This document shows, in pieces, positions 16,404 to 37,374 of a DNA stretch of 44,577 bases; position 1 is the stretch's first letter; each line of letters starts with the position of its first letter. The stretch covers positions 1-44,577 of the forward strand of contig JAOAPR010000202.1 in assembly GCA_025463005.1 (NCBI GenBank), read 5' to 3'. Under the pieces are notes generated by a model, which was not told where the DNA came from, ran no database searches, and was given only the letters and a program-made list of their open reading frames with translations. The stretch comes from Bryobacterales bacterium (GTDB lineage: Bacteria > Acidobacteriota > Terriglobia > Bryobacterales > Bryobacteraceae). Made by a program: the position numbers and the translations under genes.

Positions 16404-17354
16404 TCACTTCTGCGCGGGGCGCTCGAACGTTTCCCACGTATCGCCGAGCGGCAAAGAACTGGGATTCTGACCTCCAAAGAGCACCACTCTTTGGCGAACG
16501 CTGTCGTAGGTCATGCCAGCGTAGGAACGCGGACCAGGGCCAATATCCTGCAGTTGAGTCCAGAGCTTCCCATCCCACACCCACGTGTCGCCAAAGGATC
16601 CGGATCCCAGCCCGCCGTAGAGTAGGACGTGAGTGCTGTCATAGTCCATCCCGTACGCGCGGCGTGGTGAGGGGCCGATATCGCCAACCCTTGTCCACTG
16701 CGTGCCGTCATATTCCCATGTGTCGTTCAGCGGGTTGAAGTTGTATCCGGTTTGTGTCGTATAGCCACTAAACCAGTTGCCAGTCTGATAGGTATAGGTG
16801 CTGACTGTGGTGCCGCCAAACAGGATGACGCGATCTCGAGCGCTGTCGTATGCCAGTCTGTGATCGAAGCGCGCAGGCGGCCCCGCGTCCTGTTCCTGCG
16901 TCCATTCGTTGCCGTCCCAGACCCACGTATCGGCAAACGCCAAATTGTTCTGGTTAACGCCCCCAAAGAGGACCACTCGCTGGCGCTTGTTGTCGAACGT
17001 TAGGGCGTGACCCTGCCGGGGGGCGGGGCCAGTGTCGCCGATCTGGGTCCACTCCTGGCCGTCCCATTCCCAAGTGTCACCCAAAACACTTGAACCGGAA
17101 CTCCCGCCGAAGAGTACGATTCGCTTTCGATTGCTGTCGTAGGCCAACGCGAGCCCGCTGCGCGGCGACGGGCCGATATCCGCCGTTTGCGTCCAAATCT
17201 CGCCATTCCACTCCCACGTGTCGTTCGTTCGCGCCGACCCAGCAAGGCCGCCACATAAGACCACGCGGCCGCGCACCACATCGAACGCCATGCCAAAGGC
17301 ATAGCGAGCGGCCGGGCCTATGTCCTGTTTCTGTGTCCAGAAAAGCTGCGGCAT
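16404..17354 (-). CDS. Kelch-repeat beta-propeller protein
   Basis: 316 residues made of six regular Kelch-type repeats, each following WTQ..D.GP.PR, AYDS.R.RVVLFGG and GDTWEWDG. The fourth repeat carries an insertion with YTYQTGNWFSGYTTQTGY. The open frame extends 25 codons upstream, but ATG at 17354 is preferred because TGATACAAT ends seven bases before it, implying a leaderless transcript. No signal peptide is visible at this start, so it may be cytoplasmic. A binding scaffold is likely; partners are unknown. Confidence 0.75.
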   Translation of the reverse strand: MPQLFWTQKQDIGPAARYAFGMAFDVVRGRVVLCGGLAGSARTNDTWEWNGEIWTQTADIGPSPRSGLALAYDSNRKRIVLFGGSSGSSVLGDTWEWDGQEWTQIGDTGPAPRQGHALTFDNKRQRVVLFGGVNQNNLAFADTWVWDGNEWTQEQDAGPPARFDHRLAYDSARDRVILFGGTTVSTYTYQTGNWFSGYTTQTGYNFNPLNDTWEYDGTQWTRVGDIGPSPRRAYGMDYDSTHVLLYGGLGSGSFGDTWVWDGKLWTQLQDIGPGPRSYAGMTYDSVRQRVVLFGGQNPSSLPLGDTWETFERPAQK

Positions 17355-17361
17355 ACGCGCG

Positions 17362-17370
17362 ATTGTATCA
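17362..17370 (-). promoter_or_regulatory. Extended -10 of the leaderless Kelch gene
   Basis: On the minus strand TGATACAAT ends seven bases before ATG 17354. The spacing is identical to that before the cupin gene at 10384, with no ribosome binding site between. Confidence 0.45.
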
Positions 17371-17594
17371 GTCTCCCAGCGCCAGGATTCCGGGGCCGCG
17401 AGTTCGGCTAGCGCGGGGTGCAGGTCCAACCGTATTCTTTCGGGCTCGCAAAAACTCCCTGTATCAGGGATTCGGCCTACTGGGGAAGGGTCCCATTGAC
17501 ACAGGCTGGAGTCCGACCTTCAAGGCCCGCTCAGTCACATAGCGGCTTAATATTGTGACAATTGCACAGTGGGCCGGTCCCTCCAGGCAGACTA

Positions 17595-21648: not shown

Positions 21649-22788
21649 TTAGTTGTCCGGTCCTTCGCCGTTATCCCGGTCGTCGGTAAAGACCAGGACA
21701 CCTACATTGGTGACGGGGAGGAAGATGTGGTTGTTCTCACTGTCTGCTGCAATCGAGTGACTGAACTGGGCAGGTGGTGGCGTGAAATGTCCAGTCCAGG
21801 GCAGGGTACCAATCACGCCATAAGGAGCCACTGCACTGACCACGGGCACGCTGATAAAACCGCCGAAATAAACACGCTCGTCTCCTGGATTGAACCAGAT
21901 CTCGTCGGCGCTAACTCCAGGTACTGTGTGTACGACCGACCCGGTTGCGATGTCGAGGACATCACCGCAGCTCGTCATCAGGCGCTGAGCGGGAATCAGG
22001 GCCAACCCAGCCGGACCGCAGGTGGTCGGGAAGATCCTCGTCACCATTCTCGTTAGGGGATTGATCTCATCGACCTCCCCGCTATTGTGCGCGCTCGTCC
22101 CCGGTACAGCAAGGTAGAAGCGTCTCGTTACTCCATCCCACACAGGTTGTTCGAGGCCATGATTCGTGGCCGGAGAGCCAAAGACCACCTGCGGATAGGA
22201 AAGCTTGCCCAAGACCGTGCGAGTCGTTGTGGAGATAAACGTTATAAAGGGCGTCGCATCTCTATCGTTAGCAATCAGGATGATGTGATCCATGGGGTCG
22301 TAAGCCAATTCATCCGCCCGAGCGGTCCCGCCAGTGCTTACTAATAGAGCGGTGGAGAAGGGGTGGTTCAGGTCGATGATTCTTACGGTGCTGTCGGCGG
22401 CTCCCACCCACAGCTCCCTGGCGCCTTCGTCGTTCTCGTCAGCGTCGTCCGACTTGCGAATCGCGACTACCCCATTTCCTGCGGCGGTTGGAGGGAGGGG
22501 AATGGCGAATAGGAATTTATCGTGTTCGGTGTCAATTACGTCGATCGTCGGGGCGACGGGGGGCGTGGCCTTGGCGTTTCCCCGGTTGGCAAGATAGTAC
22601 CGTCCGCTCTCAGAATCGACCCAACTGATGTCGAAGCCCACCAGGCCTTCCGGGATTGTAATCGTGGTGAGTTGTTTGTAGGGCGCCAGCTTATCCTTGT
22701 CCGAGTCGTCCGCGTATGCGGTTGCAAACAGCGCCAGTAGAGCTGGTAGTGCCAAAAGGGGTAATGCGAACAGTTTCTTTTGCTTCAT
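21649..22788 (-). CDS. Secreted YncE-like beta-propeller protein
   Basis: 379 residues with signal peptide MKQKKLFALPLLALPALLAL ending ATAYA. The body has YncE/40-residue propeller repeats such as RYYLANRGNAK, TIDVIDTEHDKFLFAIPLPP, STVRIIDLNHPF and DEIWFNPGDERVYFGG. The start at 22788 has AAGGAG nine bases upstream; an in-frame upstream start would spoil the signal peptide. The N-terminus is rich in Asp and Lys after cleavage. Function unknown; probably extracytoplasmic binding. Confidence 0.75.
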   Translation of the reverse strand: MKQKKLFALPLLALPALLALFATAYADDSDKDKLAPYKQLTTITIPEGLVGFDISWVDSESGRYYLANRGNAKATPPVAPTIDVIDTEHDKFLFAIPLPPTAAGNGVVAIRKSDDADENDEGARELWVGAADSTVRIIDLNHPFSTALLVSTGGTARADELAYDPMDHIILIANDRDATPFITFISTTTRTVLGKLSYPQVVFGSPATNHGLEQPVWDGVTRRFYLAVPGTSAHNSGEVDEINPLTRMVTRIFPTTCGPAGLALIPAQRLMTSCGDVLDIATGSVVHTVPGVSADEIWFNPGDERVYFGGFISVPVVSAVAPYGVIGTLPWTGHFTPPPAQFSHSIAADSENNHIFLPVTNVGVLVFTDDRDNGEGPDN

Positions 22789-24913: not shown

Positions 24914-25032
24914 ATGGCAATAGACGGTTCAACCTTTGCAACGGGTGTCGCGTAGATCTTGAGAGCGTTAATGATGCCCCGGAGTACCGCCCAGGAGTGC
25001 GCCGTTAGACGCACAATCCTTTTTATTTTGAG

Positions 25033-25077
25033 TGGTGAGCGCGGAAGGAATCGAACCTTCAACCTACTGATTAAGAG
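25033..25077 (-). other. 3' half of tRNA-Lys(CTT): putative attachment site
   Basis: On the minus strand this reads from the anticodon loop CTCTTAA (anticodon CTT), through the 3' anticodon stem TCAGT, variable loop AGGTT, a perfect T-arm GAAGG-TTCGATT-CCTTC, acceptor half CGCGCTC, A and CCA. On its 5' side TGCGT cannot pair with TCAGT, and no D-arm or 5' acceptor follows, so it is a fragment cut exactly at the anticodon loop. That is the usual crossover point of tyrosine integrases. The geometry puts the inserted element to the right, with the intact tRNA-Lys at its far end beyond this window (inference). Confidence 0.75.
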
Positions 25078-25175
25078 ACGCAGAAATCAGCGCCTGCAAC
25101 TATCAATGAAATCAACGTATCTTCCTCTGCGGCAAGGGGATCCGCTCTAAAGACGTTGCTGCCCATTACTCTGCA

Positions 25176-25494
25176 TTAACGGGCATTTCTGGCTCTGACT
25201 GCTAAAGTTCCCGCTAAAGTGGAACCGCGCTTCCATCGGCGCCACCGTGCCAGTCTATCCCTTAGCGCGGCGATGCAGGTGCCCGCGTTTAGACGCGGGC
25301 CGGGATAGCCGCAACGTCGGCAGAGATCAGCGGGGACTACATCTTGATCGTCGCTGCCAGCCGCTGCAGAGCTTGGCCGACAGTCCGCGACGGCAAGGAG
25401 GATACGGCAGGGGCATGCCCGCAGCCGCGGCGGGCTTGTTGCGCTTCCACTGGGTCGAACGCGAAGGAAGAACAGCCGGCGCCGGTGCGCTCAT
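25176..25494 (-). pseudogene. Remnant of a CxxCG zinc-ribbon family protein (copy 1)
   Basis: One minus-strand frame gives DLCRRCGYPGPRLNAGTCIA followed by ALRDRLARWRRW and a stop at 25176. A start-like ATG at 25494 (MSAPAPAVLPSRSTQW) lies in another frame, so at least one shift separates N- and C-terminal parts. The CxRCGYPGPR..AG.CI.ALRDRLA pattern recurs at 27.5 and 36.4 kb, and the matching stretch shows mainly synonymous differences from the 27.5 kb copy, so it was coding. It lies next to the attachment-site fragment. Confidence 0.4.
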
Positions 25495-25538
25495 GGCGTC
25501 AGGATATCAGGGGCGGAACATTTCAGCAATCCGCCGTT

Positions 25539-25832
25539 CTAACTGAACAGCTTCCTGGATGCGTCTGGCCACCCATAATTCACGGTCCCGCGATTACCGG
25601 GATTTCCAGGATTACCCGAATTTCCAGGATTCCCAGGGTTGCCAATGTTGCCAGGGTTGCCCATACCCATATCGACAATCATGTCGCGATGAAGCTCTCC
25701 TACATACTCGCCTGAAAGTGTGTGTACGTGACTTCCGCGAATCTGCCCGACGGCCTGACCGGACATTTCGTGGATGTAGTTCCCCAACACGTAGCCGACA
25801 GCGCTTCCGCCAGCCTCGTAAATGTACTTCAT
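25539..25832 (-). CDS. 4-fold beta-flower domain protein with Gly-Asn-Pro repeat tail
   Basis: 97 residues. The first 55 form four short strand repeats (KYIYEAGGSAVGYVLG, NYIHEMSGQAVGQIRG, SHVHTLSGEYVGELHR), the pattern of the 4-fold beta-flower family. Residues from about 56 to 80 are a collagen-like tract of NPG/NxG triplets beginning GNPGNIGNPGNPGNSG. The tail ends in ASRKLFS. GGGGAGGAA before the ATG is an excellent ribosome site. It is the last of three minus-strand genes (26394 to 25539). Function unknown. Confidence 0.75.
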   Translation of the reverse strand: MKYIYEAGGSAVGYVLGNYIHEMSGQAVGQIRGSHVHTLSGEYVGELHRDMIVDMGMGNPGNIGNPGNPGNSGNPGNPGNRGTVNYGWPDASRKLFS

Positions 25833-25862
25833 GTATTATTCCTCCCCTAAGGCTCGGTTCGG

Positions 25863-26126
25863 TCAATGCTTTCCAATGAGACCCCTGAGCCACGGCGCGA
25901 AATATGGCCACGCAGTGGCGAGGGCGTTAAGCATTCCCACGAAAAGAGCGGCGATAGCGATTTTACGCGTGGAACTGGTCTCGGCGAGTCCTTCGTTCCT
26001 CAGTCTAATTTTTAACTCGCCCTGTAGTAAATCATGGGTTACCGAGCCCGGTGGAATACCAGCAAGGCGATCTAGAATTTCGTCCGTAGTCAGCTTCTTA
26101 AGCGCCTCGCGCGAGAGGTCCGACAT
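25863..26126 (-). CDS. Small membrane-anchored hypothetical protein
   Basis: 87 residues: an acidic/helical N-terminus (MSDLSREALKKLTTDEILDR) and one C-terminal hydrophobic helix (IAIAALFVGMLNALATAWPY). The start at 26126 has a GAGGG site and lies four bases after the upstream gene's stop; the frame is open further upstream but that part is a shadow. Probably inner-membrane anchored. Not recognised. Confidence 0.6.
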   Translation of the reverse strand: MSDLSREALKKLTTDEILDRLAGIPPGSVTHDLLQGELKIRLRNEGLAETSSTRKIAIAALFVGMLNALATAWPYFAPWLRGLIGKH

Positions 26127-26130
26127 GCCC

Positions 26131-26394
26131 TCAGTTCCCCTGCACTTCCGGCGTCGCTTTCGATGTGCGCAGTTCCGCAGCGCCGAGAATACTTCGGAGG
26201 GCTGATAGATAGTCCTGATCAATCGCGATCGTTATCTCGGCAGCGTATTCGACGCCCTGATGCTGCTGCTTGTTAGCCGCGACACCTTGTCTGATGGCCT
26301 CCATGAGCCATGGCCAACGCGGATCCTCAAGTTTCCTAATCTTCTGTTCGCACTCAGCAATTGATTCTTGGAGCGGCGATTGGTTGGGACTCAT
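26131..26394 (-). CDS. Small hypothetical protein
   Basis: 87 residues, soluble and mostly helical: SIAECEQKIRKLEDPRWPWL, then a Gln/Glu-rich stretch and a C-terminus ending TPEVQGN. Tightly spaced with the next gene (four bases), so the two are probably one operon with the beta-flower gene. No known family recognised. Confidence 0.55.
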   Translation of the reverse strand: MSPNQSPLQESIAECEQKIRKLEDPRWPWLMEAIRQGVAANKQQHQGVEYAAEITIAIDQDYLSALRSILGAAELRTSKATPEVQGN

Positions 26395-26418
26395 TTGGTT
26401 CTTCCCCCTGCACCAGCT

Positions 26419-26615
26419 TCACGGTCTACAAACCGGCGCGCTCGTCTTATCCTTAAGCTTCCTCGGCAGTCGGCCGCTGCATGTTTGCCGGGGCATGGGC
26501 GCCGATTCGATCGTCCTCATGGTGTTCTGATTCCGGCGTGCGTACTCTCGCGGTAGCGCCTCCCCTTGAAAAGGAACTCGTACCAGTAGGCGTCGCCGCG
26601 TGTGTAAATGGCCAT
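26419..26615 (-). pseudogene. N-terminal remnant of a tyrosine integrase
   Basis: From ATG 26615 the minus strand reads MAIYTRGDAYWYEFLFKGRR then YRESTHAG, matching the arm-binding N-terminus of phage-type tyrosine recombinases (MAxYxRGxxWWYxFxxxGxxxRESTxxxN). A one-base shift near 26533 carries it into NQNTMRTIESA, again integrase-like, after which similarity ends. The catalytic domain is absent. It lies 1.5 kb from the tRNA fragment, so it may be the dead integrase of the element that used that site. Confidence 0.55.
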
Positions 26616-26642
26616 CAGTTCTACCTGTAATTCTTCCCACCA

Positions 26643-27038
26643 CTAAGCCGATTCAGGGAGTCCTATTTGCAAGAAAACTTCCTTGAGCCACTGTACGCCG
26701 TCCATCGGCATCCCCTCCGCTGGCTTTTTCACGGCTGCGTCAGCACCGAGCAAAATAGCAGCATCCAGAACCTTTTCACGCCCTGCTGAAATAGCTATGA
26801 TTTTGAGATTGGTCCTGTTTTCGCACAACCGGCGGATTAACTCAAAACCGCTGACGAGCGGCATAAATACGTCAATGATAGCGAGTGAGATGTCCAGCCG
26901 ATGTTGATTCAGTAGCTCCATGGCCGCTTTCCCGTCTCTCGCGCCAAGGACCAAATAGCCACGATCCAAAAGAATTTTGGTTAGGTGAGAGATAAACTCA
27001 GGATCGTCATCCGCGATCAATACAAGACCTTGGCTCAT
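26643..27038 (-). CDS. Stand-alone response-regulator receiver protein
   Basis: 131 residues, CheY-like, with no output domain. The acidic pocket is D10-D12 in LIADDDPEF, the phosphoacceptor D56 in IIDVFMP, the switch serine S84 in IAISAG and the lysine in AAVKKPAEG. No histidine kinase is nearby. It is an orphan receiver inside the putative island and could act by phospho-dependent protein contact. Confidence 0.85.
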   Translation of the reverse strand: MSQGLVLIADDDPEFISHLTKILLDRGYLVLGARDGKAAMELLNQHRLDISLAIIDVFMPLVSGFELIRRLCENRTNLKIIAISAGREKVLDAAILLGADAAVKKPAEGMPMDGVQWLKEVFLQIGLPESA

Positions 27039-27295
27039 TTAATCTCGGCTCCGCGCCACCGCGCCATCATAGGGATCAGCATATCACCTAGTGTTGGAAC
27101 CTTCGGCGATGCGTAACCTTGCTATTCCAGGACCGTATTCTCTGTACGCGCGGTGAGAAACAGCCGGGCGTCCTCAATGCCCCCCCCAACGCTGGCCGAA
27201 GAGATGCTCAGGCTGCACGGCTATCGTCGTTTTGAATCATTGTACTTGGAACGGTAGCCGGCTAAATTCAGCTCCGGCGCGTGAAAGAGCCAGAA

Positions 27296-27391
27296 TCACG
27301 CTTCCTTCCTCGCTTTGGCCTTCGCGCTGCGCACCTTGGCTGATGCAGCCGCGGAAACGGAGAGCGTCCAATGAAATGCTGGCGCCTAAGG
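27296..27391 (-). pseudogene. Remnant of the C-terminus of the 35.2 kb ART-like protein family
   Basis: After a stop codon, one minus-strand frame reads APAFHWTLSVSAAASAKVRS and AKAKARKEA then stop. The end of the gene at 35204-36035 reads VLAFWRASSSAKVRSAKAKA and KRKDAS then stop. The shared SAKVRSAKAKA tail and the aligned F-W residues point to a lost paralog whose body is gone. Short and basic, so similarity by composition cannot be excluded. Confidence 0.35.
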
Positions 27392-27500
27392 GGTGCCCAT
27401 GTGACTGGCACGTTTGTGGTTGCGGGTTAGCGGCTTCACTCATTTGGTCAGGAACCATGAAATCGAATCGTTTCCGGCGAGGACGCCCTGACGGTGCGCT

Positions 27501-27756
27501 CTACTCCGACCGAGCCTGCCGATCCCCCAGCCCGGCGATGTATGCGCCGGCGTCCCGACGTGGACCTGGATATCCGCACCTGGAAGCACTGCTTCGACGG
27601 GATCCCGTCGCCCGGCCGCGATTCGGGAATCGTCGATCGGTGCGAGCGCCGGCGGTCAGAACGCTCGGCTTCGCCTTCGATGGCATGATCGGCGCACATA
27701 CGCGCGGCGCTGCCGATCATGCTGGAATCCGCGAACCTGGCCACGGCTGGGATCAT
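27501..27756 (-). pseudogene. Zinc-ribbon family protein (copy 2), frameshifted
   Basis: From ATG 27756: VARFADSSMIGSAARMCADH, then a basic linker to SKQCFQ, where the frame changes; the next frame continues CGYPGPRRDAGAYIAGLGDR and stops at 27501. Removing one G from CAGGTGC near 27580 gives C-F-Q-C-G, restoring a CxxCG motif. The N-terminus matches copy 3 (VATFADSSMMGCAVSLCADR at 36.4 kb) in both DNA and protein. Function unknown; zinc binding is inferred from the cysteines. Confidence 0.55.
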
Positions 27757-27869
27757 CGTATCACCCGTTGGAACGTATCAGCAACGAAAGCGTTGCGGCG
27801 GAAGGAACCAGAGGGTCGGGCCTTGCTTACGATTACCGACGTGGTCGAGACCGAGCCAGCGCGGCAGGA

Positions 27870-29060
27870 TCACGTTCGCATCTCGTAGACGTCCAGTGTA
27901 AGGCGACCGTTCGAAACTCTCAGCATCTCTGGATTTGTAATTGCGAGACTCTCGCAGTTCAAGAGGTTCTCATGTTTTGTGCGGAAATAGCGAATTTGGG
28001 AAAGCGGTGGCAACGCGGCACCAGAGAGGTCAATCTCGATGGCGATCCGATCATCATTGTGCACGATGCTGGTTTCTCCCAGATTGAATTGCTCGACCGT
28101 GGCCGGACGCTCGGTAGCGGTCTGCGTGGGTTCGCCGTAACCGAACACTCGAGGTGAACTGATGATCTGCGCAACAAGGCGAGCCTTTCCCTCCAGTCCG
28201 ATCTCCAAAACCCTCTCGCCGCACAAATCAACCATCTCTGGGCGAACGCGAACGCCGAAACGAATTGTGCGGGTGTCCTCCCTGGCCAACAGGTTTAGCG
28301 TGTCGAGTTGGGAAGAAGCAGCGTTGAAGACTGATTGCAGCACGGCGTGCCGCCGAAGCTCTTGGACTAGGACCCCTGGGTCGATATTCTGAAAGCTCTG
28401 AGGAGCGAACCCTACACTAACGTTCACATCGGAATACTGGTAGTAGTACAAGATCAACGCGACTTGGTCGCCCCAGTTCGCCACTTCCTGTTCGGTGAGG
28501 TGTTTCAGGTCGCGTAAATGGACTCGATAGCGCGCAGCCTTAAGTTGGGCACCTTTTGTGAATCCAGCCGAGGCGACCGCAATGATCGTATCCGCTCCAA
28601 GCGACTGCCGACGACCCATGAGTTCTTCGATCCACTTAACGTTCTGTCGGTTACGTGACAGCCGACATTCGATGATCGTCAGCTTGCCGTTCCGGCGGAC
28701 CGTGATATCGATTTGGCGTAATCGTTCAGGATTGTCGGGATCAGGAATATGATCGTTCCACGTCACATCATCATGTGAGCGTTCAAGTAACTCGTGGATG
28801 CGGTGGATTTGTCGTTCGAGTGCTTCTGACGTCTCCATACGTTTGCTCAGACGACCGTCATCGTTACTTCTATTGTCTCCGAAGGTGGCTTTCTGAGCCG
28901 AGAGTTTAATCCCCGACCGGCTGTGCACGTCGATTAAACGACGGTAGTTGTCAGCCGTGATCAGAATAGGCGTGTCTGCCTCGGAAGCCTGGCGCGCCGC
29001 AGCCGAGAGGTGAACGCTCAGCTCGAAATCGGCCTTTCCTACGAGTTCCCAGCGAGTCAA
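27870..29060 (-). CDS. Restriction-endonuclease-like (PD-(D/E)xK superfamily) protein
   Basis: 396 residues from a TTG start at 29060 that has no clear ribosome site; METSEAL (residue 75) is an alternative start. Residues 112-200 look like the Mrr-type nuclease core: RQIDITVRRNG (D118), LTIIECRLSRN (E131-C-R133), ELMGRRQSLGADTIIAVASA and GFTKGAQLKAA. In active members the last motif residue is lysine (ExK); here it is arginine, so activity is doubtful. The C-terminal 180 residues are not recognised. No methyltransferase is nearby. Possible island defence gene. Confidence 0.65.
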   Translation of the reverse strand: MTRWELVGKADFELSVHLSAAARQASEADTPILITADNYRRLIDVHSRSGIKLSAQKATFGDNRSNDDGRLSKRMETSEALERQIHRIHELLERSHDDVTWNDHIPDPDNPERLRQIDITVRRNGKLTIIECRLSRNRQNVKWIEELMGRRQSLGADTIIAVASAGFTKGAQLKAARYRVHLRDLKHLTEQEVANWGDQVALILYYYQYSDVNVSVGFAPQSFQNIDPGVLVQELRRHAVLQSVFNAASSQLDTLNLLAREDTRTIRFGVRVRPEMVDLCGERVLEIGLEGKARLVAQIISSPRVFGYGEPTQTATERPATVEQFNLGETSIVHNDDRIAIEIDLSGAALPPLSQIRYFRTKHENLLNCESLAITNPEMLRVSNGRLTLDVYEMRT

Positions 29061-29156
29061 GCCACTCGACCCGAATCCACTATCGCCCTTCGTTCTATGC
29101 CCGCAAAGCGGGCAATCGATTTCGACCGGTGGTCGGAACCGGGATCATCCCGGAAG

Positions 29157-29525
29157 TCACGGCGCGCACCCCGCGCGCTCCGTCTTATCCTTAAGCTTCG
29201 CCTCGGCCGTGGTCTGCCATTGCAAGTTGCTTGCAGCGTCGGCGCCGCCGCATGCCAGCGGAGTCTTGTGATCTACAACGTAGCCCCTGCACCCGCCCGA
29301 AGTCTTACCGGTGGCCGGACATGGATTCGACGCCTGGAAGTTCCGTTTCGCGGACGCGTTGCGGACATTCTTCAGCGAGCTATGATCGACCGCGGGATGC
29401 TTCGTCACCTTGTAGGTATTCGTGACGTGCGACGGCTTGGGATGCGATGAACTGGAGTGTGAACCCTTAGCCGTGACGATCGTCGGAAGGAATGCAATTA
29501 GGATGAAAGCGGCGAGACGGTTCAT
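29157..29525 (-). CDS. Secreted HNH-type nuclease-like protein
   Basis: 122 residues with a signal peptide (MNRLAAFILIAFLPTIVTA), a Ser/His/Lys-rich linker and a C-terminal HNH-like module: FQASNPCPATGKTSGGCRGY, VVDHKTPLACGGADAASNLQ and WQTTAEAKLKDKTE. The DH dyad, the downstream N and the paired cysteines fit small exported HNH nucleases common in soil bacteria and prophages. It precedes the restriction-like gene on the same strand. Confidence 0.75.
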   Translation of the reverse strand: MNRLAAFILIAFLPTIVTAKGSHSSSSHPKPSHVTNTYKVTKHPAVDHSSLKNVRNASAKRNFQASNPCPATGKTSGGCRGYVVDHKTPLACGGADAASNLQWQTTAEAKLKDKTERAGCAP

Positions 29526-29636
29526 GGCGACCAGATCTATGCTACCAACTGCTGCACCCGCTATCGCTCAACGCTGGCCGGCTTCAGGACCTCATAGCGA
29601 GAATTGAAAGATCGAACTGGCGTGAAGGGCATGGTG

Positions 29637-30059
29637 CTAGTCCCTCTGCGGCGCAACGTCCACTTTGCCGAATCGTTCGTCGCTGATTTTGCGCCTGTAG
29701 GGTTCAAGCAGTGCTTCGACCTCGGCCGGGCTGGCCCCTCTGATTTGTTCGCCAAAAGCCATCATTGCCACACAGAACCAGATGTGCGCGTTTTCCGGCT
29801 GTGCGCAGATGGCGGTCACCCCTTTCGAGATCTCGCCGTATGTGGCGTCCGGCACCGTGCTCTCGGCTTGTTGCACCGCCTCGAAGATTTTCTGCATCTC
29901 GATGAACCCGATGACGAAGTTTATGCGCTCCGGCTCCGACGGCCGCGCATTCCAGAAGCTGCAGTTGAGGAGCCCGCCCGTTTTCTGGATTTCAGGGATC
30001 TGGGCCGCGCTTGGAAGCTGGGCGGCCAGCGCGATCAGGCAGGCCAGAATCAGTTTCAT
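29637..30059 (-). CDS. Secreted hypothetical protein
   Basis: 140 residues, signal peptide MKLILACLIALAAQLPSAAQ, then a compact helical domain with three cysteines (LLNCSFW, TAICAQP, IWFCVAM). GAGGGG precedes the ATG. The size and the helices FVIGFIEMQKIFEAVQQAES suggest a small periplasmic protein. Upstream neighbour of the secreted HNH gene and possibly co-transcribed with it. Not recognised. Confidence 0.6.
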   Translation of the reverse strand: MKLILACLIALAAQLPSAAQIPEIQKTGGLLNCSFWNARPSEPERINFVIGFIEMQKIFEAVQQAESTVPDATYGEISKGVTAICAQPENAHIWFCVAMMAFGEQIRGASPAEVEALLEPYRRKISDERFGKVDVAPQRD

Positions 30060-30133
30060 GCTTTCCCCTCGTCAGTTTTGGGCCTGGGCTTTAACGGCCC
30101 TGGAAGCCGCGCGCGGGAACTCCGCACCCTCAC

Positions 30134-30247
30134 TCAGCAGCCACGCTCTCGCTTGTGTTGCTCAAGAGCGAGACGAGTCGCGTCGCGAGCGTTCCTGGCG
30201 TCATTCCCCAGCCCGCGTAAGTGATGGTATTCCGCTCTGGATGCCAT
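30134..30247 (-). CDS. 'HGC-tail' helical family protein (copy 4, short)
   Basis: 37 residues from ATG 30247: MASRAEYHHLRGLGNDARNA, RDATRLALEQHKRERGC, then stop. The end matches the other three copies (SEAARLELERHVREHGC, YEDSRQKLDAHIANHGC, ERAFGALAQHCKEHGC). The frame is open upstream with TTG codons in reach, so the true start may be earlier, or this copy has lost its N-terminal half. It lies 26 bases after the preceding gene. Confidence 0.45.
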   Translation of the reverse strand: MASRAEYHHLRGLGNDARNARDATRLALEQHKRERGC

Positions 30248-30273
30248 GCCGTGCAACCGCCCGGCGGGCAAAT

Positions 30274-30558
30274 CTACCGGACCCTGAGGGTAGTGGGAAT
30301 GTGCGATCTTAGCCTGTGGCTTTCGTAAAGATCCTGGGTTTGAGCCCGCGAGGTAAACAACTCGGCCAGCAACCGCTGGGATTCCCTCGACTCTTCGACG
30401 CTTGAGAAACCGTTCTCGCGTTTCCCGTTCTCGCGAAGCAGCGCCATTAAGTTGGTAAGGAGCAGGTTGGCATTTTCCAGCGCCCGCCGCCTCTGGCCAT
30501 TCGGCTTGAGATGTTCCAGAACGCGGTCGATCGAGCCAGCGATGTCTGGCGGGGTCAC
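30274..30558 (-). CDS. Small helical hypothetical protein
   Basis: 94 residues, soluble, helical, charged: VLEHLKPNGQRRRALENANL then LLTNLMALLRENGKR. The ATG overlaps the stop of the upstream GGKAR gene (ATGA), so they are translationally coupled. No known family recognised. Confidence 0.55.
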   Translation of the reverse strand: MTPPDIAGSIDRVLEHLKPNGQRRRALENANLLLTNLMALLRENGKRENGFSSVEESRESQRLLAELFTSRAQTQDLYESHRLRSHIPTTLRVR

Positions 30559-30743
30559 TTGCCCTTCTTGCCGCGCGACAGGTTCTTCGGCGCGTGTAGC
30601 TTGTCCCCGCGCACCTTCAGGGGCTCATCCTGCAGCTTCGCTTGGCCCCAGCGAGCCGCGGCGCCTTTCTTGGCGAGCTCCTTACGCTGTCGCTCGGTCA
30701 GGCTGGCCATGCGTGCCTTGCCGCCTTTCTTTCCGCCTGTCAA
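30555..30743 (-). CDS. Small basic GGKAR-motif protein (copy 1)
   Basis: Up to 62 residues, very rich in Lys/Arg, with GGKARMASLTERQRKELAKK and GAAARWGQ. The same pattern occurs in copy 2 at 34998 (GGKARAAKMTAKQRSAAASK, AVKARWKK). This Lys/Arg/Ala helix resembles DNA-binding tails of histone-like or phage proteins. The start is unclear: TTG at 30743 lies inside an inverted repeat shared with 32.8 kb, and ATG at 30710 would remove the GGKAR motif. The 5' end may therefore be rearranged. Confidence 0.55.
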   Translation of the reverse strand: MTGGKKGGKARMASLTERQRKELAKKGAAARWGQAKLQDEPLKVRGDKLHAPKNLSRGKKGK

Positions 30744-30996
30744 CGCAGCGGGAGATATGTTTCATTGATCCACTGCCGCGCCGGGGCAGCGCGAAAACGG
30801 CCCGGTGCAAAGCAACCAAGGGCTTGATACAATCTTTCGACCACAAGACAGCTTTGGTGTTGACCTCCCACGCGGCGAGTTGGTTAAACCTTACGACTCG
30901 CCGCGCCCCTTCCTGGATTCCCGTTACGTAGGGATAGTGGCCAAATGCAGATCGGGAATCTACGGGCAGGTAACGGTCAATCATGGTATCCGACAT
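30682..30996 (-). CDS. Hypothetical protein with possibly altered 3' end
   Basis: From ATG 30996: MSDTMIDRYLPVDSRSAFGH, YPYVTGIQEGARRVVRFNQL and AAWEVNTKAVLW, with a composition (W, Y, F, balanced charges) typical of real coding sequence. After about residue 80 the frame runs through the shared inverted repeat and into the GGKAR gene's DNA, so the natural end was probably lost by recombination. No family recognised. Confidence 0.4.
   Translation of the reverse strand: MSDTMIDRYLPVDSRSAFGHYPYVTGIQEGARRVVRFNQLAAWEVNTKAVLWSKDCIKPLVALHRAVFALPRRGSGSMKHISRCVDRRKERRQGTHGQPDRATA
30736..30770. repeat. Inverted repeat, left copy (partner 32803-32836)
   Basis: The plus strand here matches the minus strand of 32836-32803 over about 34 bases with one substitution and a 2-base AT insertion. 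At 32.8 kb the sequence is the end of the HNH gene plus the start of the next; here it lies at the GGKAR gene boundary. It suggests past recombination between the two loci. Confidence 0.65.
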
Positions 30997-31238
30997 ATAG
31001 TCCGTCAAGGAACTTCATTTCCACAAGTTTTTCAACGGGTTTTTTTCCCAGATTGCGTGACTCACGCGGCTGCCTTTGCGGACGCACGACGGTGCTAATA
31101 TCTACTGGGGCCGGGGAGTAGTCGGAGGAGACGTGAGGTGCAGAACGCGCCCGCGCTGGCTACGCGACCGGCCCTAACCCGATTGCGAGTAGCCCGGCAT
31201 CACTTAGATGGCAAACTTTGACCTGCTAGGATGGTCGA

Positions 31239-31412
31239 TTGGCAAAAGAAGTCCCCGATCCGAAGCCGGAAACGCCAAACCCAACGCATTGGATGAAAGA
31301 CGGTAAGCCAGCGTGCGGGGCAAATATGACGTTCTGGTCATCGTTCAGCGGGCCAGAGTTTGCCACCTGCGAAGAGTGTCTAAGGATTCGCTCAGAGAGC
31401 GACTCAAAGTAA
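31239..31412 (+). CDS. Small cysteine-rich (zinc-binding-like) protein
   Basis: 57 residues from TTG 31239 (an AGGATGG site stands just before it): MAKEVPDPKPETPNPTHWMK, DGKPACGANMTFWSSFSGPE and FATCEECLRIRSESDSK. H-x9-C and a CxxC pair suggest a small zinc knuckle. It ends one base before the GTG of the next gene (TAAGGTG), so the two form an operon. Confidence 0.5.
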   Translation: MAKEVPDPKPETPNPTHWMKDGKPACGANMTFWSSFSGPEFATCEECLRIRSESDSK

Positions 31413-31413
31413 G

Positions 31414-31623
31414 GTGCCGTGTCACGAAAGAAACCGGCTGCTCACTCTCTACAAGGCCGAAGTTACGCGTTACGCAGAGGCCGTTGACAGCTTAAAGCTC
31501 ATCCGAGGGAAGACACTTAAGCCAGATTACGTTCACATGCTGTCGCTTTCGGATGAAGCTAGAATGGCGTCTGAAGCGGCCCGCCTTGAGCTTGAGCGAC
31601 ACGTCAGAGAGCATGGCTGTTGA
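31414..31623 (+). CDS. 'HGC-tail' helical family protein (copy 1)
   Basis: 69 residues from GTG 31414: RNRLLTLYKAEVTRYAEAVD, then LSLSDEARMASEAARLELER and HVREHGC. The build is two helices ending in a strictly placed HGC. Copies 2 and 3 are at 41294 and 41554 and a short copy 4 at 30134. Sequences between copies differ greatly, but length, the conserved E/R..C/R-x-E start and the HxxEHGC end agree. Function unknown. Confidence 0.6.
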   Translation: MPCHERNRLLTLYKAEVTRYAEAVDSLKLIRGKTLKPDYVHMLSLSDEARMASEAARLELERHVREHGC

Positions 31624-31877
31624 GCGCCGAATCGAACAGGGGCGTATACTCCAAGGTGTTGTGGAAGTTTACAAGCGGGAGACCAAGCGCGTAATCTGGC
31701 GTCTCCGCAATCGGCAACTCAGCATTGCGACGGTGCATCGCTCGTTTAGACCCTCCTCTCGCAAAGCTGATCCCCAAGCTACAACCAGGGCAACTCGACG
31801 AGTTACGGGCCGTCATGCTGGCGAACAACGAAAGGGTCATGGCGGAAATGGAACGGTGGGCATCCGTTAGTGGCTGA
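31613..31877 (+). pseudogene. Hypothetical small helical protein, probably frameshifted
   Basis: ATG 31613 overlaps the end of the HGC gene and opens MAVERRIEQGRILQGVVEVY then KRETKRVIWRL. Another frame then reads RRCIARLDPPLAKLIPKLQP, GQLDELRAVMLANNERVMAE and MERWASVSG to a stop at 31877. The second half has strong coding character but no start codon of its own, so a shift around 31700 is likely. Not recognised. Confidence 0.4.
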
Positions 31878-32127
31878 AACAGGGTTTTGGCATTGGGTTC
31901 GCCTGTTGATTGAGAATTGGAAGCAGCTCCGTCTTGCGCGGCGGTTCATTCAGCCCCGGCCCCGATACCGTCGCCGCCGTCATTAGAACCGCCTAAAGCG
32001 GGCGTGTTTGCACCTGTCATCCCGGTGATTACCTATTAACTCGTGTACGCTGTATTGCGTGCACTGGTCGGAGCTTCGCGAGCGCTTGAGACTGCAGCCG
32101 CGCCCGCGCCTAGCTTTGGGGCTTCCT
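31878..32127. other. Stretch with no recognised gene
   Basis: About 250 bases between the frameshifted gene and the zinc-ribbon relic. Short open frames without ribosome sites only. Confidence 0.35.
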
Positions 32128-32250
32128 TCATTCGCTCGGGCTACGGATCGGTCGCCAGATCCCTGCGCGCGCATTAACCCTGGGGTTCGGAGCCTCGATG
32201 GGTTCGACCAACTCACCGCAGTTTTCGCAGCGAACTTCCGTGGAAGATAT
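32128..32250 (-). pseudogene. Start-less CxxCG fragment
   Basis: After a TAA at 32253, the minus strand reads SSTEVRCENCGELVEPIEAP, NPRVNARAGIWRPIRSPSE, then TGA. CENCGE..EP is a typical half zinc ribbon, and the text looks coded, but there is no start codon after the upstream stop. Probably a relic of another small zinc-binding protein. Confidence 0.3.
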
Positions 32251-32276
32251 TTACTGCTGATGCGCGCGAGAGAATC

Positions 32277-32579
32277 CTACGCGCCGTCGGAGCCTTGAAC
32301 CTTTACTAACTTGTTGTACAAGCCAAGAATCAACAGGGTCGGTGCCCACTGACCCACAAAGGTGGCGGCTTTGCCGCGGCCGGTCAGTGCCAAGCCTAGC
32401 GAAATTCCCATTGACCCAAGCGCGGTCCACAAGAATGTGTCGGATGGCAGCTTCGCAGTCTGTTGTTCAATTGTTCGCGCAACCTTGCCTTCTCGGTGCT
32501 CCGGCCGGGGGCTGGTGCGTGGCTCATCGGCAATGCCGTGCTCCATGGCGTCGGTCATCGCGTCTTTCATGTTATGCAT
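32277..32579 (-). CDS. Conserved small membrane protein
   Basis: 100 residues. The N-terminal 45 are polar (DEPRTSPRPEHREGKVARTI), then EQQTAKLPSDTFLWTALGSM leads into two hydrophobic segments (GISLGLALTG and FVGQWAPTLLILGLYNKLVK). I recall near-identical small proteins in acidobacterial genomes, annotated only as hypothetical. Two ATG codons (M1, M4) could start it; GAGGAA lies upstream. Confidence 0.65.
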   Translation of the reverse strand: MHNMKDAMTDAMEHGIADEPRTSPRPEHREGKVARTIEQQTAKLPSDTFLWTALGSMGISLGLALTGRGKAATFVGQWAPTLLILGLYNKLVKVQGSDGA

Positions 32580-32691
32580 ACTACGCTACGTTCCTCTTCG
32601 TCTAGTTCGAGTCAGATGCCGCTCACCTGTTTCGCAAAATTAAACCCCGATTGCGCCACCGGTGGCGTTGGATGGAAGGGATCGAAAGACG

Positions 32692-32808
32692 CTATCTGAT
32701 GACCCTCCGTAGACGTTCAACACGCTCCCGGTGCTTCCGCGCCAGGATCCGGCGCAGCAACACGGCAGCCAAGGCGAGCGAGCTCACGCCGATGATAGCA
32801 GCGATCAA
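32692..32808 (-). CDS. Tiny membrane protein overlapping the HNH gene
   Basis: 38 residues from TTG 32808, which overlaps the HNH stop (TTGA): IAAIIGVSSLALAAVLLRRI, then LARKHRERVERLRRVIR. One membrane helix and a strongly basic tail. GGGAG stands eight bases before the TTG, inside the HNH gene. The size and shape resemble small phage membrane peptides, but no function can be assigned. Confidence 0.45.
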   Translation of the reverse strand: MIAAIIGVSSLALAAVLLRRILARKHRERVERLRRVIR

Positions 32809-32836
32809 TGAAACATCTCCCGCTGCGTCGACAGGA
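32803..32836. repeat. Inverted repeat, right copy (partner 30736-30770)
   Basis: Covers the last codons of the HNH gene and the ribosome site and start of the tiny membrane gene. The opposite-strand copy at 30.75 kb has one substitution and an inserted AT. Confidence 0.65.
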
Positions 32837-33236
32837 AGGGCCGGAGGGCGTTCTGGTAGCTTTCGAACTGGCTGCGCATCGTCGCCTTGAAGCGAACGTC
32901 TTCCAGCGCGCGATTGCAGGCGGAACAGACGAGCCACGTGGCCTCTGGTTCGTTTCTGTAGCGGTTCACCCAATGATCGAATTCGGCGCCCGGTAGCTTG
33001 CCCTCTTCGTTGCACACCTCGGTTTCCTGGCAGGCCGGGCACAGGCCATTCCTCCGAAGCCAGACGACCCGACAATGGAGCATCCGCGCGAAGGGAGTCA
33101 ACGGCCGGCGCTGAACCGGAAGACTGGCGGCGATCTGTGCGACGGTGGCCGCTACGAAAGAAAGATCATGGCGAAGCTGATCGAGGCCGGGGCTTTCGTC
33201 CTCGCTTATCAGCAGATCAAGCTGGTTTTCGAGCAT
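32805..33236 (-). CDS. HNH endonuclease-like protein
   Basis: 143 residues from ATG 33236. A helical N-terminal region (LDQLRHDLSFVAATVAQIAA) precedes the module CRVVWLRRNGLCPACQE, GAEFDHWVNRYRNEPEATWL and VCSACNRALEDVRF. The paired CPxC/CxxC zinc cage, the DH of FDHW and the N of CNR fit an HNH fold of the zinc-stabilised type. Two motif histidines are not obvious. The frame is open upstream, but that part is a shadow of the 33320-33619 gene. Last soluble gene of the operon from 34871. Confidence 0.65.
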   Translation of the reverse strand: MLENQLDLLISEDESPGLDQLRHDLSFVAATVAQIAASLPVQRRPLTPFARMLHCRVVWLRRNGLCPACQETEVCNEEGKLPGAEFDHWVNRYRNEPEATWLVCSACNRALEDVRFKATMRSQFESYQNALRPFLSTQREMFH

Positions 33237-33319
33237 GTAGAATTGTGCGGCAGAACGGCGGGATTTGTCACGCGCGGATATCGGAAGTGGTTGAAACGGG
33301 GACGGTTGACCCTGGGAAT

Positions 33320-33619
33320 TCAGGCGGCGTTGATATCGGAATCTACGGAGGTTATCGCCTCGCGGGCTTGTTCGAGTGCGGCGATCACGCCGGTACGAAG
33401 GGCGGCGCAGGCGCGCTGGTACTTCATGCCTTCGGCGAGGATGGTCAGATCGATGATTCGCTCTGACAGGCCGAATCGGCGCGCTAAGATTGCGGAGAGT
33501 TCCTGCGGCGTTCCTGCGGCAGCCAAGTCGCAAGCCTGCTCCCAGATGAGCTTTCGAACATCCGGGAGAGGCAGGCGAGAACGTCGGCCCGTTTCCGAAC
33601 CGGCAGGTTTGCGGGTCAT
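33320..33619 (-). CDS. Small hypothetical protein
   Basis: 99 residues: basic N-terminus (MTRKPAGSETGRRSRLPLPD), then a helical body VRKLIWEQACDLAAAGTPQE and LSAILARRFGLSERIIDLTI that could be a helix-turn-helix-like fold (RFGLSERIID). Its ATG overlaps the upstream stop (ATGA, 33616-33619). It may be a small DNA-binding protein, but this is only a guess from composition. Confidence 0.55.
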   Translation of the reverse strand: MTRKPAGSETGRRSRLPLPDVRKLIWEQACDLAAAGTPQELSAILARRFGLSERIIDLTILAEGMKYQRACAALRTGVIAALEQAREAITSVDSDINAA

Positions 33620-33846
33620 GCAGGCGGCTTCCTGGGTTTGACGAGAGGAGGCCTGCCGGCGGCCGGCCTCATCGTGGGATTAGCCTCTAAATACCGGACC
33701 AGCTCGCGTTGACGCTTGCGTTTGAACTTGCGTATAAGTTGGATGTATTCTTCGGCCTCTTTCAACCAATCGAGGCGGTCCTCTAGGGTGAGTTCCGGTT
33801 CTGCCGGTTTATCAACGATAAACAGCCGAGGTTTCTCCGTAGCCAT
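33616..33846 (-). CDS. Small charged hypothetical protein
   Basis: 76 residues: acidic helix LTLEDRLDWLKEAEEYIQLI followed by a basic stretch RKFKRKRQRELVRYLEANPT and a Pro/Lys-rich tail. It lies seven bases after the 33854-34438 gene and overlaps the next by four. Not recognised. Confidence 0.55.
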   Translation of the reverse strand: MATEKPRLFIVDKPAEPELTLEDRLDWLKEAEEYIQLIRKFKRKRQRELVRYLEANPTMRPAAGRPPLVKPRKPPA

Positions 33847-33853
33847 GATGAAT

Positions 33854-34438
33854 TCAGGCAGTCTTTCCGTGGCGTTTCCGCGCGCGCTGTCTCTTCGCGG
33901 GCTTGCTAGTGATGGCAGGCTCGGGGGATGTTTCCGGCTCTGCCGGCGGTGCGGGAAAGAGCTTCGGATGCTGCTCTTTCATGTTGTAGGCGTCGTCCAC
34001 GTAGTCCCAAAAGGTGGCGATGCTGTGAGCGATCGCGCCCAGTTCTTGCCGCGGATCTCCGTCATTGCAGGCGAATGGCCCCTCCATGGTCACTTCGTAT
34101 AGCAGATTTTGGACGACCTCATAAACCCAGTTCCCTCCGGACTGGTGCGAATTCTCGCCGGCGTTCAGTAAGTCGATCAAGGCGCTGACTAAGGCCAACT
34201 TATTGGCGTCGAGTTCTACCAGATTTCGCGTCACATTTCCAAGCGTGTTCTGTTCAGTATGTATTTTGCGCAACCTGGTTCGACGCTCAATATCTTCCTC
34301 TGGCCGCTTTCCACCGGTCGTCATTGGCACATCTTCGGCGAGTCCCGCGAAGTAGTAGAAGTTGTCCGCGTCTTGCTCGTCCATTTCCAGGAAGCGCTCT
34401 TTACCTCTGTGGTGTACGGTGATTCCGTTCTCAGGCAT
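33854..34438 (-). CDS. Hypothetical protein with basic C-terminal tail
   Basis: 194 residues from ATG 34438: DEQDADNFYYFAGLAEDVPM, then a helical core KLALVSALIDLLNAGEN and SIATFWDYVDDAYNMKEQHP, and a tail rich in Pro/Lys/Arg (KPAKRQRARKRHGKTA). The start overlaps the previous gene by eight bases. Length and composition fit a phage- or island-encoded cytoplasmic protein; no family recognised. Confidence 0.55.
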   Translation of the reverse strand: MPENGITVHHRGKERFLEMDEQDADNFYYFAGLAEDVPMTTGGKRPEEDIERRTRLRKIHTEQNTLGNVTRNLVELDANKLALVSALIDLLNAGENSHQSGGNWVYEVVQNLLYEVTMEGPFACNDGDPRQELGAIAHSIATFWDYVDDAYNMKEQHPKLFPAPPAEPETSPEPAITSKPAKRQRARKRHGKTA

Positions 34439-34871
34439 GGGCCACCTCCTGGACGGCGATGCCGCGCATCTTGGCGAGGTGGGCCTTGAGTGCAATGAAC
34501 TCTTCGCGGGTGAGTTCCACGTCCTGCGTTTCACAGTGCTGGTTAGGCGCCGTCATTATGAGCGCGTATCCGTGCGGATCGGGCGTGTACTTCGTCCAGT
34601 CTCGCCTCCAATCTGGTTTATGGACCTGAAGCGGTTCGGTCTGCTCAAAAACGTCGAGTCCGGCGATAAGAGCACCGTGCGGGTCTTCGTCGGTGAATTC
34701 GCGCAGTGGATTCAACCCTCCCTCGGTCGTCACCGAGAGTCGTCCTGATTCGATTTCGACTCCTTCGAGTTCGATTCTGCGGCGAATTCCGATCGCCGCC
34801 TTATAAGCAATCTTGTAGGGCTCCAAGACGGACTTCAATTCCGCCTGGGTGATTCGTTTCTTCGCCTGCAC
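34431..34871 (-). CDS. Hypothetical protein, first gene of the island minus-strand operon
   Basis: 146 residues. An in-frame ATG lies at 34919, but GTG 34871 is preferred: AAGGAG stands seven bases before it and the -10 element of the promoter ends only 11 bases before the ATG. The protein reads VQAKKRITQAELKSVLEPYK, IAYKAAIGIRRRIELEGVEI, and ends LTREEFIALKAHLAKMRGIA. No domain recognised. Confidence 0.55.
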   Translation of the reverse strand: MQAKKRITQAELKSVLEPYKIAYKAAIGIRRRIELEGVEIESGRLSVTTEGGLNPLREFTDEDPHGALIAGLDVFEQTEPLQVHKPDWRRDWTKYTPDPHGYALIMTAPNQHCETQDVELTREEFIALKAHLAKMRGIAVQEVAHA

Positions 34872-34930
34872 TTGGTTTCTCCTTTGTGAGTGAAAAGTGC
34901 TCGCCTCTGATGGCGGCATGTATGTGGTAG

Positions 34931-34960
34931 AGTGTACACGTAGGGCCTACGTATAGTCAA
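34931..34960 (-). promoter_or_regulatory. Promoter of the minus-strand operon with operator in its spacer
   Basis: On the minus strand TTGACT (34960-34955) and TACACT (34936-34931) are 18 bases apart. The spacer holds a 15-base palindrome ACGTAGGGCCTACGT (34938-34952, as read on the plus strand), seven-base arms around one centre base. A repressor there would block RNA polymerase. Confidence 0.6.
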
Positions 34961-34971
34961 GAGCCATTCTA

Positions 34972-34981
34972 AGGGCCTACG
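34972..34981. promoter_or_regulatory. Second operator-like half site
   Basis: AGGGCCTACG at 34972-34981 repeats exactly the right part of the palindrome (34942-34951), 30 bases away, about three helical turns, so both would face the same side of the DNA. It lies between the divergent starts at 34871 and 34998. Confidence 0.45.
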
Positions 34982-34997
34982 GAATACCCTTCAGGGA

Positions 34998-35201
34998 ATG
35001 GCTCGGAAGCGGAGAGAATTTGCGTCCATGACGGAGATGCTCGAGTTCTTCAAGAAGACGGGCGCGCAGGGCGGCAAGGCGCGCGCGGCCAAGATGACAG
35101 CCAAGCAGCGGAGTGCAGCCGCCAGCAAGGCGGTCAAAGCTCGCTGGAAGAAAGCCGCATCGGGGAGCTCGAAGGCAAAGGCGAAGAAAGCAGCTAAGTA
35201 A
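34998..35201 (+). CDS. Small basic GGKAR-motif protein (copy 2)
   Basis: 67 residues: EFASMTEMLEFFKKTGAQGG, KARAAKMTAKQRSAAASKAV and a Lys/Ala-rich tail (KAASGSSKAKAKKAAK). It shares GGKARxxxxTxxQRxxxxxKAxxARW with copy 1 at 30.6 kb. The tail looks like a histone-H1-type DNA-binding arm. It is the first gene of the plus-strand run and faces the operator-bearing region, so it may be the regulator or an architectural protein (inference). Confidence 0.6.
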   Translation: MARKRREFASMTEMLEFFKKTGAQGGKARAAKMTAKQRSAAASKAVKARWKKAASGSSKAKAKKAAK

Positions 35202-35203
35202 AA

Positions 35204-36035
35204 ATGGCTCGGCGCGCCCTAATTCTCGATTATCCCGATCGGCACGATCTCGGCAGCTGATATAGACGCTGCCGGGTTTGAAGCGCGCGAAGCGGAGATT
35301 GATCGCGAGCAAGCAGCTCGCCGCGACACTTTCTGGCGGAAGCGCGACTGGCACAACTATATTTTCATTCACGCGCGCGGTCACCGCTGGCACGCGTTGG
35401 AACGCGTTGCTGAGGTTCTAAATCCGGGACAAATCCCAACACTTGCTCGGTTGTTTCGCGCAGTCTGGATTGACGCGGAGGATATCTGGCGACAGCGGCG
35501 AAGGATCAGTAGATTGGTGCGTCTGATCGGGGACGGCCGGGAACGTTATCTCATGACAGCGGAAGATCGGGAAAAGTTCCGCGCGCTGCCAGAACGCTTT
35601 AAAGTTTACCGCGGCGCGAAGCCCTGGAACATCCCAGGCCTGTCGTGGACAACCGACGTTGATCGCGCATGCACGTTTGCCATGCACACGCACGATGGAG
35701 CGTTCCCTGTATCGCTCAGCCGTGAGCACGGTGGCTGTGTTTACGAAAGGCTTCTTAGAAAGTGCGACGTTCTCTTCTACACCAATGCGCGCACTGAGGA
35801 TGAAATTATTACGCGAAGATTTTTGCGCGGAAGCCTCTCGCCAATGGGCGCGATCTCGCTCGCGCTGTATGACGGGCCAGAAGCTGGTCTTGCGGAATAC
35901 GAACTGCAGAAGAGCAAGCTCGATCCCGAGGCGCTTGCGGAGTTAACGCCAGAGGTTTTGGCTTTTTGGCGGGCGTCGTCGTCGGCCAAGGTGCGGAGCG
36001 CGAAGGCAAAGGCGAAGCGGAAGGACGCGAGCTAA
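35204..36035 (+). pseudogene. Possible ADP-ribosyltransferase-like protein, 5' frameshift
   Basis: ATG 35204 opens MARRALILD, while the long frame reads ISAADIDAAGFEAREAEIDR, QAARRDTFWRKRDWHNYIFI and on to a stop at 36035, with no start before a TTG at 35397. Removing one base near 35230 joins them into about 276 residues. The C-terminal half has FKVYRGAKPW, PGLSWTTDVDRACTFA and NARTEDEIITRR, in the order R, S-x-T, E-x-E of R-S-E ADP-ribosyltransferases. That fold call rests on motifs only. The tail is SAKVRSAKAKAKRKDAS. Its stop overlaps the next start (TAATG). Confidence 0.5.
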
Positions 36036-36709: not shown

Positions 36710-36857
36710 AATCCGGGCCCCGCGCGCCAGGCTATGAGCCTTTCGCTGACTTCCAAGTTTCTAAGGATTTTCGAACTGCTTGACGGCCTGAACATCGCCA
36801 GCATCAAAATACCGGGCAGGAATGAATTTCGGGGGGTCTTGATCGCCCGTCCGATCC

Positions 36858-37001: not shown

Positions 37002-37005
37002 GCGT

Positions 37006-37311: not shown

Positions 37312-37374
37312 ATTCAAAGTAGCCCACTACCGTCCCTTTTGGTGGCGGCCTTGCGAGAGCGGGCCGCCAAGGGA

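Follow-up and report, generated by a model that had tools for sequence, protein, structure and literature searches.

The stretch of DNA analyzed here (the window) is the entire 44,577-nt contig C39 of a draft Bryobacterales genome of 6,358,390 bases in 342 contigs. At positions 25033-25077 on the minus strand, the window carries a displaced 3' part of tRNA-Lys(CTT), reading CTCTTAATC...CACCA, which spans the anticodon loop (CTCTTAA) to CCA and lacks the 5' half. The preliminary description had reported such a half-tRNA, and its limits proved exact. ARAGORN predicts no complete tRNA in the whole window. A change of gene style had also been placed at the fragment and is seen again here: among ORFs scoring at least 20, coding density is 0.83 on the left (median 822 nt, n = 22) and 0.48 on the right (median 432 nt, n = 20), under a scoring model that favors the left side, having been trained on the left half of the window and the chromosomal part of a second contig, C163. 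G+C content is nearly constant across the fragment (0.586 to 0.569).

The DNA on the 5' side of the fragment (25078-44577), of low coding density, runs to the end of the contig and is the visible distal part of a putative integrated element. Features in this part are on the minus strand unless stated otherwise. Just inside it, 9-bp-period repeats at 25592-25660 encode a collagen-like GNPGNPG tract. At 26517-26615 lies a possible 32-aa relic of an integrase N-terminus, a weak match to an arm DNA-binding domain below the cut-off (PF12167, E = 0.024). In a very permissive tblastn search, this stretch matches two integrases at E values of 0.002-0.004 amid many chance matches, and its place and orientation are similar to those of int1 in a member of the same genus, G015. 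An Mrr-type restriction endonuclease-like protein is encoded at 27870-29060 (PF04471, 8.1e-7, over the cut-off; no PADLOC match). Farther right is a transposase gene pair, presumably of the IS3 type, at 37663-38810 (rve_3, 1.2e-31, at 37663-38466; HTH_Tnp_1, 2.3e-24, at 38475-38810). It is followed by a gene for a DUF3037 protein at 38841-39635 (PF11236, 5.2e-9; PADLOC PDC-M66B, 1.4e-4) and that of its partner, a HipA-like kinase, at 39651-40427 (PF20613, 4.6e-14 for the 39651-40403 version; PADLOC PDC-M66A, 1.5e-7). The latter two genes (38841-40427) match the PADLOC candidate module PDC-M66.

Near the contig end, a weak SLATT-like match at 42333-42872 (PF18181, E = 0.00093, below the cut-off; no PADLOC match) adjoins a gene for a 336-aa tail-like protein at 42968-43978 (phrog_25379 tail protein, 3.8e-7; phrog_19068, of unknown function, 3.5e-11). 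The tail-like gene has a paralogue on contig C57, and its strand matches the expected direction of the element. Beyond the tail and SLATT-like genes, about 17 kb of low-density sequence is mostly without assignment. A small basic GGK-rich protein is encoded on the plus strand at 34944-35198, and short stretches like it recur near 27.3 and 36.0 kb. Relatives of this protein in C57 and at locus L049 are encoded directly upstream of integrase genes, and no integrase gene is recognized behind the window copy at 34944-35198.

Left of the fragment, the ORF at 4353-6065, which we take to be UreC, has relatives 89-96% identical in 6 of 22 kin (the other members of a 23-genome genus sample that includes the present genome, G000), and contig C39 thus fits the genus. 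An Rfam 5' ureB sRNA match (80.8 bits) lies at 5615-5913 on the plus strand, opposite to that of the ORF. The product of 8478-10136 resembles PQQ-dependent alcohol dehydrogenases. Within the first 51 kb of the G014 contig with the tRNA fragment, an 82% homologue of it lies about as far past the fragment as in the window; for 14124-14441, this stretch has only 29-34% paralogues. Two genes on this side are rare in the genus (E 1e-20): 16404-17429 is found in just one of the 22 kin and 21649-22788 in two. Kin loci past the tRNA or fragment have almost nothing in common with the left flank of the window, the exceptions being the 82% gene in G014 and paralogues at 29-36% (51% in one stretch) in G014 and G002. 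A homologue of the window's PepSY gene lies beside tRNA-Thr in G014 (L067, G014:C28:2810-4345), and the same locus has an 80-bp stretch 76% identical to the integrase gene of C163.

A search of the own genome with the 45-nt fragment, allowing up to three mismatches, finds exactly two places, each with no mismatch: the fragment itself and C163:14189-14233. At the latter place, ARAGORN predicts an intact tRNA-Lys(CTT) (C163:14189-14264), whose 3' part gives the match. Chance origin of the fragment is excluded because, when one strand of the window was shuffled 20 times by mononucleotide, the 45-mer matched at best with 18-22 mismatches. No third copy of this core occurs anywhere in the own genome at up to three mismatches, and no additional degenerate copies above chance were found in the window or in the element part of C163. 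In the window, identity starts at CTCTTAA, as in nine other fragments in the genus, which places the junction in the anticodon-loop class.

The element side of C163 is the CCA side of the intact tRNA, and 14,188 bp of the element are visible there, in addition to 19,500 bp on C39. A 399-aa tyrosine integrase (C163:12969-14168; PF00589, 2.2e-27) ends 20 nt beyond the CCA. Inward of it follow genes for an HTH repressor, a small excisionase-like protein (phrog_66, 6.5e-8), a primase, a helicase, an HNH gene, TerS, and TerL (phrog_9, 1.9e-138). Last comes a gene for a tape-measure-like protein, which is cut off by the contig end and has a length of at least 1332 aa. Of the genes of a temperate tailed phage, terminase, tape measure or tail, repressor, and integrase are thus present, although the tape-measure matches are weak (phrog_1538, 1.5e-4; PF20155, 1.8e-9, 38.1 bits vs. 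a cut-off of 41). No relaxase or type IV secretion gene was found in the subset of ORFs whose proteins were scanned. The integrated island of the preliminary description is supported, and the terminase and tape-measure genes refine it to a prophage-like element. It is probably decayed or defective, since no portal gene was recognized among the element proteins scanned (part of the element lies outside both contigs), and the head-like gene at C163:4293-4823 has weak profile matches to a major head protein (phrog_2263, 3.4e-5) and a head protease (1.7e-4), with a C28 homologue that aligns to C163 in two frames.

The two visible ends have a second sequence in common. A 22-bp motif, CACTTTAGCGGGAACCTTAGCA, lies at C163:14123-14144 on the minus strand, 44 nt past the CCA (0 mismatches), and the same motif with one mismatch (21/22) is found at 25200-25221 of the window, also on the minus strand. 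The next best site in the window and C163 has six mismatches, and just 1 of 60 window shuffles (one strand) contains a site with four or fewer. In each copy, ACTTTAGC-like units occur twice at a 12-bp period, in line with arm-type integrase sites, and the window copy is predicted to be the P-side site. In G015, a 16/22 version lies 144 nt from the fragment core, a distance identical to that in the window. At the sequence level, candidate arm-type repeats are therefore found on both sides of the core, a feature of lambda-type attP. Because the repeat occurs once per end and the next best site has six mismatches, the two ends fit one attP; by this predicted arm-type site, the element parts on C39 (from window position 25078) and C163 (1-14188) are assigned to a single kind of attP. 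Such repeats provide a means of pairing element ends across broken metagenome contigs.

The fragment is interpreted, with a probability of roughly 0.88, as the distal attachment junction of a tyrosine-integrase, temperate-phage-like element in tRNA-Lys(CTT). The element would have integrated at the anticodon loop by tyrosine-integrase recombination. Its attP would have carried the 3' part of the tRNA, restoring the tRNA gene at the proximal end, on C163, while the original 3' part of the host would have been displaced to the distal end to become the fragment at 25033-25077. The integrase adjoins the restored tRNA, with predicted arm-type sites on both arms. The two core copies, the integrase, the orientation, the common arm repeat, and the hotspot in kin described below are read directly from the sequences. 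We infer the exact crossover point and that both contig ends belong to one element. The orientation in C163 and C39 fits integration, and the proposed action of a tyrosine integrase at a tRNA gains support from the 45/45 core, this orientation, and the integrase beside the intact tRNA. The anticipated complete tRNA-Lys(CTT), identical in its 3' 45 bases, is present and oriented as predicted, and the integrase adjoins it on the element side. It had been expected at the other end of the element and is found on the separate contig C163, the assembly being broken inside the element.

The two copies have no physical link in the assembly, as would also be the case for a non-integrative tRNA pseudogene that arose by segmental duplication and is unrelated to the prophage. 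However, the 45/45 identity, the anticodon-loop breakpoint seen in other fragments, the common arm site, and the integrase at the intact copy make this origin extremely improbable. The missing join, along with an estimated contamination of 4.32%, could also mean that binning brought together C39 and C163 from different organisms. This is very improbable, as both contigs have close genus kin (the GlgC-like gene of C163 is 77-90% identical in 21 of 22 kin, and UreC of C39 has the relatives given above) and have the exact core and arm site in common.

The window is the whole of C39; thus, a partner farther right could lie only on another contig. There is no overlap between the ends of C39 and C163, nor was a contig found that would join them. 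At its right end (44451-44577), C39 is identical over 127 nt to the beginning of C57 (L162), which marks an assembly fork, and the two contigs remain similar farther on (92.4% over the initial 886 aligned positions). An integrase of its own is present on C57, with enolase among the genes behind it. Additionally, C28 (L167) opens within a sequence 84% identical to the beginning of the tape-measure gene. A second related prophage, indicated by the C57 fork and the C28 copy, probably broke the assembly, which puts the middle of the first element outside view.

The sequence at 25.08-44.58 kb and the C163 prophage could also derive from two elements with integrases of one kind, stacked in the same tRNA as a tandem or composite array whose inner junction falls in the assembly gap. 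In favor are the possible integrase relic on the P side, where G015 has its integrase, and the 17 kb of low-density, mostly unassigned sequence. The two fragments in G002 and the different integrases at the intact tRNA and the fragment of G015 point in the same direction. Nevertheless, such an array is rather unlikely here, as the genome has no third core copy at up to three mismatches, one arm site is common to both visible ends, and a tail-like gene near the end of C39 is compatible with a tape-measure gene at the end of C163. A single element with an unassembled middle is the preferred reading.

The genes left of the fragment had been taken as chromosomal, and this part of the preliminary description is less secure, as the rare genes and a possible arm-type motif on the left suggest that this side may be an older element. 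The motif is a single GGTACT at 24983-24988 on the minus strand, 45 nt past the CCA, a weak candidate for a decayed arm-type site. GGTACT-like motifs lie 43-45 nt past the CCA in seven junctions, including the window, where the copy is single. Past the CCA, 12-bp-period repeats reach at least 9/10 in 8 of 30 junctions (20 at intact genes, 10 at fragments), vs. 1.3% of 3000 control windows, a statistic that was chosen after the repeats had been seen. The junction of C163 scores 7/10 at this period, and that of the window 5/10 (9/10 at period 13). When compared with 19 other junctions, the window's 150 nt past the CCA are clearly similar to those of G007, G015f, G022f, G014f, and G006 (0-4 of 200 shuffles as good), and similarity is absent for most of the remaining junctions. 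The first 12 nt past the CCA of the fragment are identical to the flank of the intact tRNA in G007, and the 29 nt after the G015 fragment have two differences from the flank of the intact gene in G001. Such agreement is expected if fragments keep the original flank.

The left side may thus consist of ancestral chromosome, of an older element, or of one following the other. Given its two rarely shared genes and the possible arm-type motif 45 nt beyond the CCA, the window's tRNA fragment could mark an internal junction of a tandem array and not the outer edge. The offset of the single GGTACT, which agrees with that of the copies in six other junctions, the enrichment of 12-bp-period repeats, and the PepSY homologue of G014 beside tRNA-Thr and an integrase-like stretch all fit an older element. 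However, the odds of this reading are somewhat below even: the window junction reaches just 5/10 in a test picked post hoc, the 12-nt flank agrees with that of an intact gene, UreC at 4.4-6.1 kb is well conserved in 6 of 22 kin, and the 82% homologue of 8478-10136 in G014 is about equally far from the fragment there. The fragment of the window most likely marks one terminus of a prophage-like element in a lineage of uncultured soil Acidobacteriota.

The tRNA-Lys(CTT) site is an integration hotspot across the genus. The intact tRNA is kept in 20 of the 23 genomes; G009, G018, and G019 have no match to the tRNA pattern. Nine genomes have displaced 3' fragments, ten in all, each starting at the anticodon loop, where the search pattern also starts, so that shorter fragments of the T-loop class are outside its reach. 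Nine of them, in eight genomes (G000, G002 with two, G004, G006, G014, G015, G021, and G022), are within three mismatches of the degenerate pattern, and one more, in G003, has seven. Upstream of the former nine, only 5-13 positions match the 31-nt 5' half, vs. 30-31 in intact copies. A candidate on contig C394 of G012 was dropped because the tRNA is cut at the contig edge. A related integrase (about 50%) adjoins the tRNA in G014, and primase and helicase homologues are present in G015. Just before the G002:C18 fragment at 27658-27702, the core motif GACTCTTAATCAGT is tandemly duplicated, and a second fragment lies 0.9 kb away, possibly the scar of repeated events. Three consecutive tyrosine recombinase matches were seen at G000:C132:1990-4333 and G004:C3:36443-38852, loci that presumably resemble a recombinase-in-trio element.

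A scan of genome contigs for the GlgC-like neighbor found 66 loci, and tRNA-Lys(CTT) stands behind the gene in 4 of the 65 scanned (L154 was left out). An empty site was sought with one protein per flank in 61 genomes, and the best matches of genus members were always on different contigs; none of the kin examined showed such a site. In two order-level genomes, G043 and G055, a weak PepSY paralogue (26-28% identity) lies 6-7 kb past the GlgC-like gene on the same contig. These are not empty sites, because no tRNA is present there and the best core match has 21 mismatches in 45.

Within one type of integrase, the gene may sit on either arm of the attachment site. The G015 integrase homologous to that of C163 (72% identical; range 72-74%) is encoded on the P side and directed toward the fragment, which follows after 86 nt, whereas the G000 integrase lies on the P' side, beside the restored tRNA. 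Moreover, G015 has different integrases beside its intact tRNA and beside its fragment. The opposite-arm placement may reflect a composite origin of the element or an exchange of integrase genes between attachment sites. Tentatively, integrases of several types, with differing arm repeats, could use the anticodon-loop site of tRNA-Lys(CTT) as a landing pad in this genus, and one type could have its gene on either arm (P' in G000, P in G015, and a possible P-side relic in G000). Because one integrase type sits on either arm of the same site, sites and integrase genes might be shuffled as separate modules, with islands accreting in tandem. Integrases on opposite arms in two kin make the modular evolution of attachment sites testable.

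Comparisons outside the genus return few relatives of the element. IMG/VR scans with TerL, tail, tape-measure, and helicase proteins found none; those with the integrase gave one close locus (65%) and three distant ones (27-31%). GenBank phage records with a TerL match number 2020, all below 60% identity, the best listed being 39.7%. IMGVR_UViG_3300005573_001618 (L155) resembles the element in its integrase (about 63-65% identical) and in a 17/22 arm-type motif near its end. However, its contig ends at the integrase stop, and no element ORF outside the integrase region matched it (E 1e-4). Prophages are known from the same phylum: 35 putative prophages were reported in 19 genomes of Acidobacteria, of which 6 were called degraded and none clustered with sequenced phage isolates, and the portions of that report available to us describe no tRNA-Lys site or attachment-arm comparison (PMC5900883).

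In Oenococcus oeni, as far as the accessible account goes, prophages have short direct repeats on both attP arms (2/2 for IntC, the tRNA-Lys type; PMC8074189). These prophages resemble the present element in having an integrase at the 3' end of tRNA-Lys and repeats on both arms, but their host belongs to a different phylum; the comparison covers site and arm repeats. The Islander resource, in the part of its description available, lists 3919 tRNA-integrated islands, 2083 of them anticodon-centered (PMC4383910). Like those with anticodon-centered attP, the element has an intact tDNA and a displaced 3' fragment at its ends, a tyrosine integrase inside, and an attachment site of the anticodon-loop class. 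Islander requires both ends on the same replicon, whereas here they are on two contigs of a draft genome, in each of which the orientation of fragment or tDNA fits. The mechanism of tRNA integration is already well known; the present analysis contributes the element itself, the genus-wide hotspot, and the paired arm sites.
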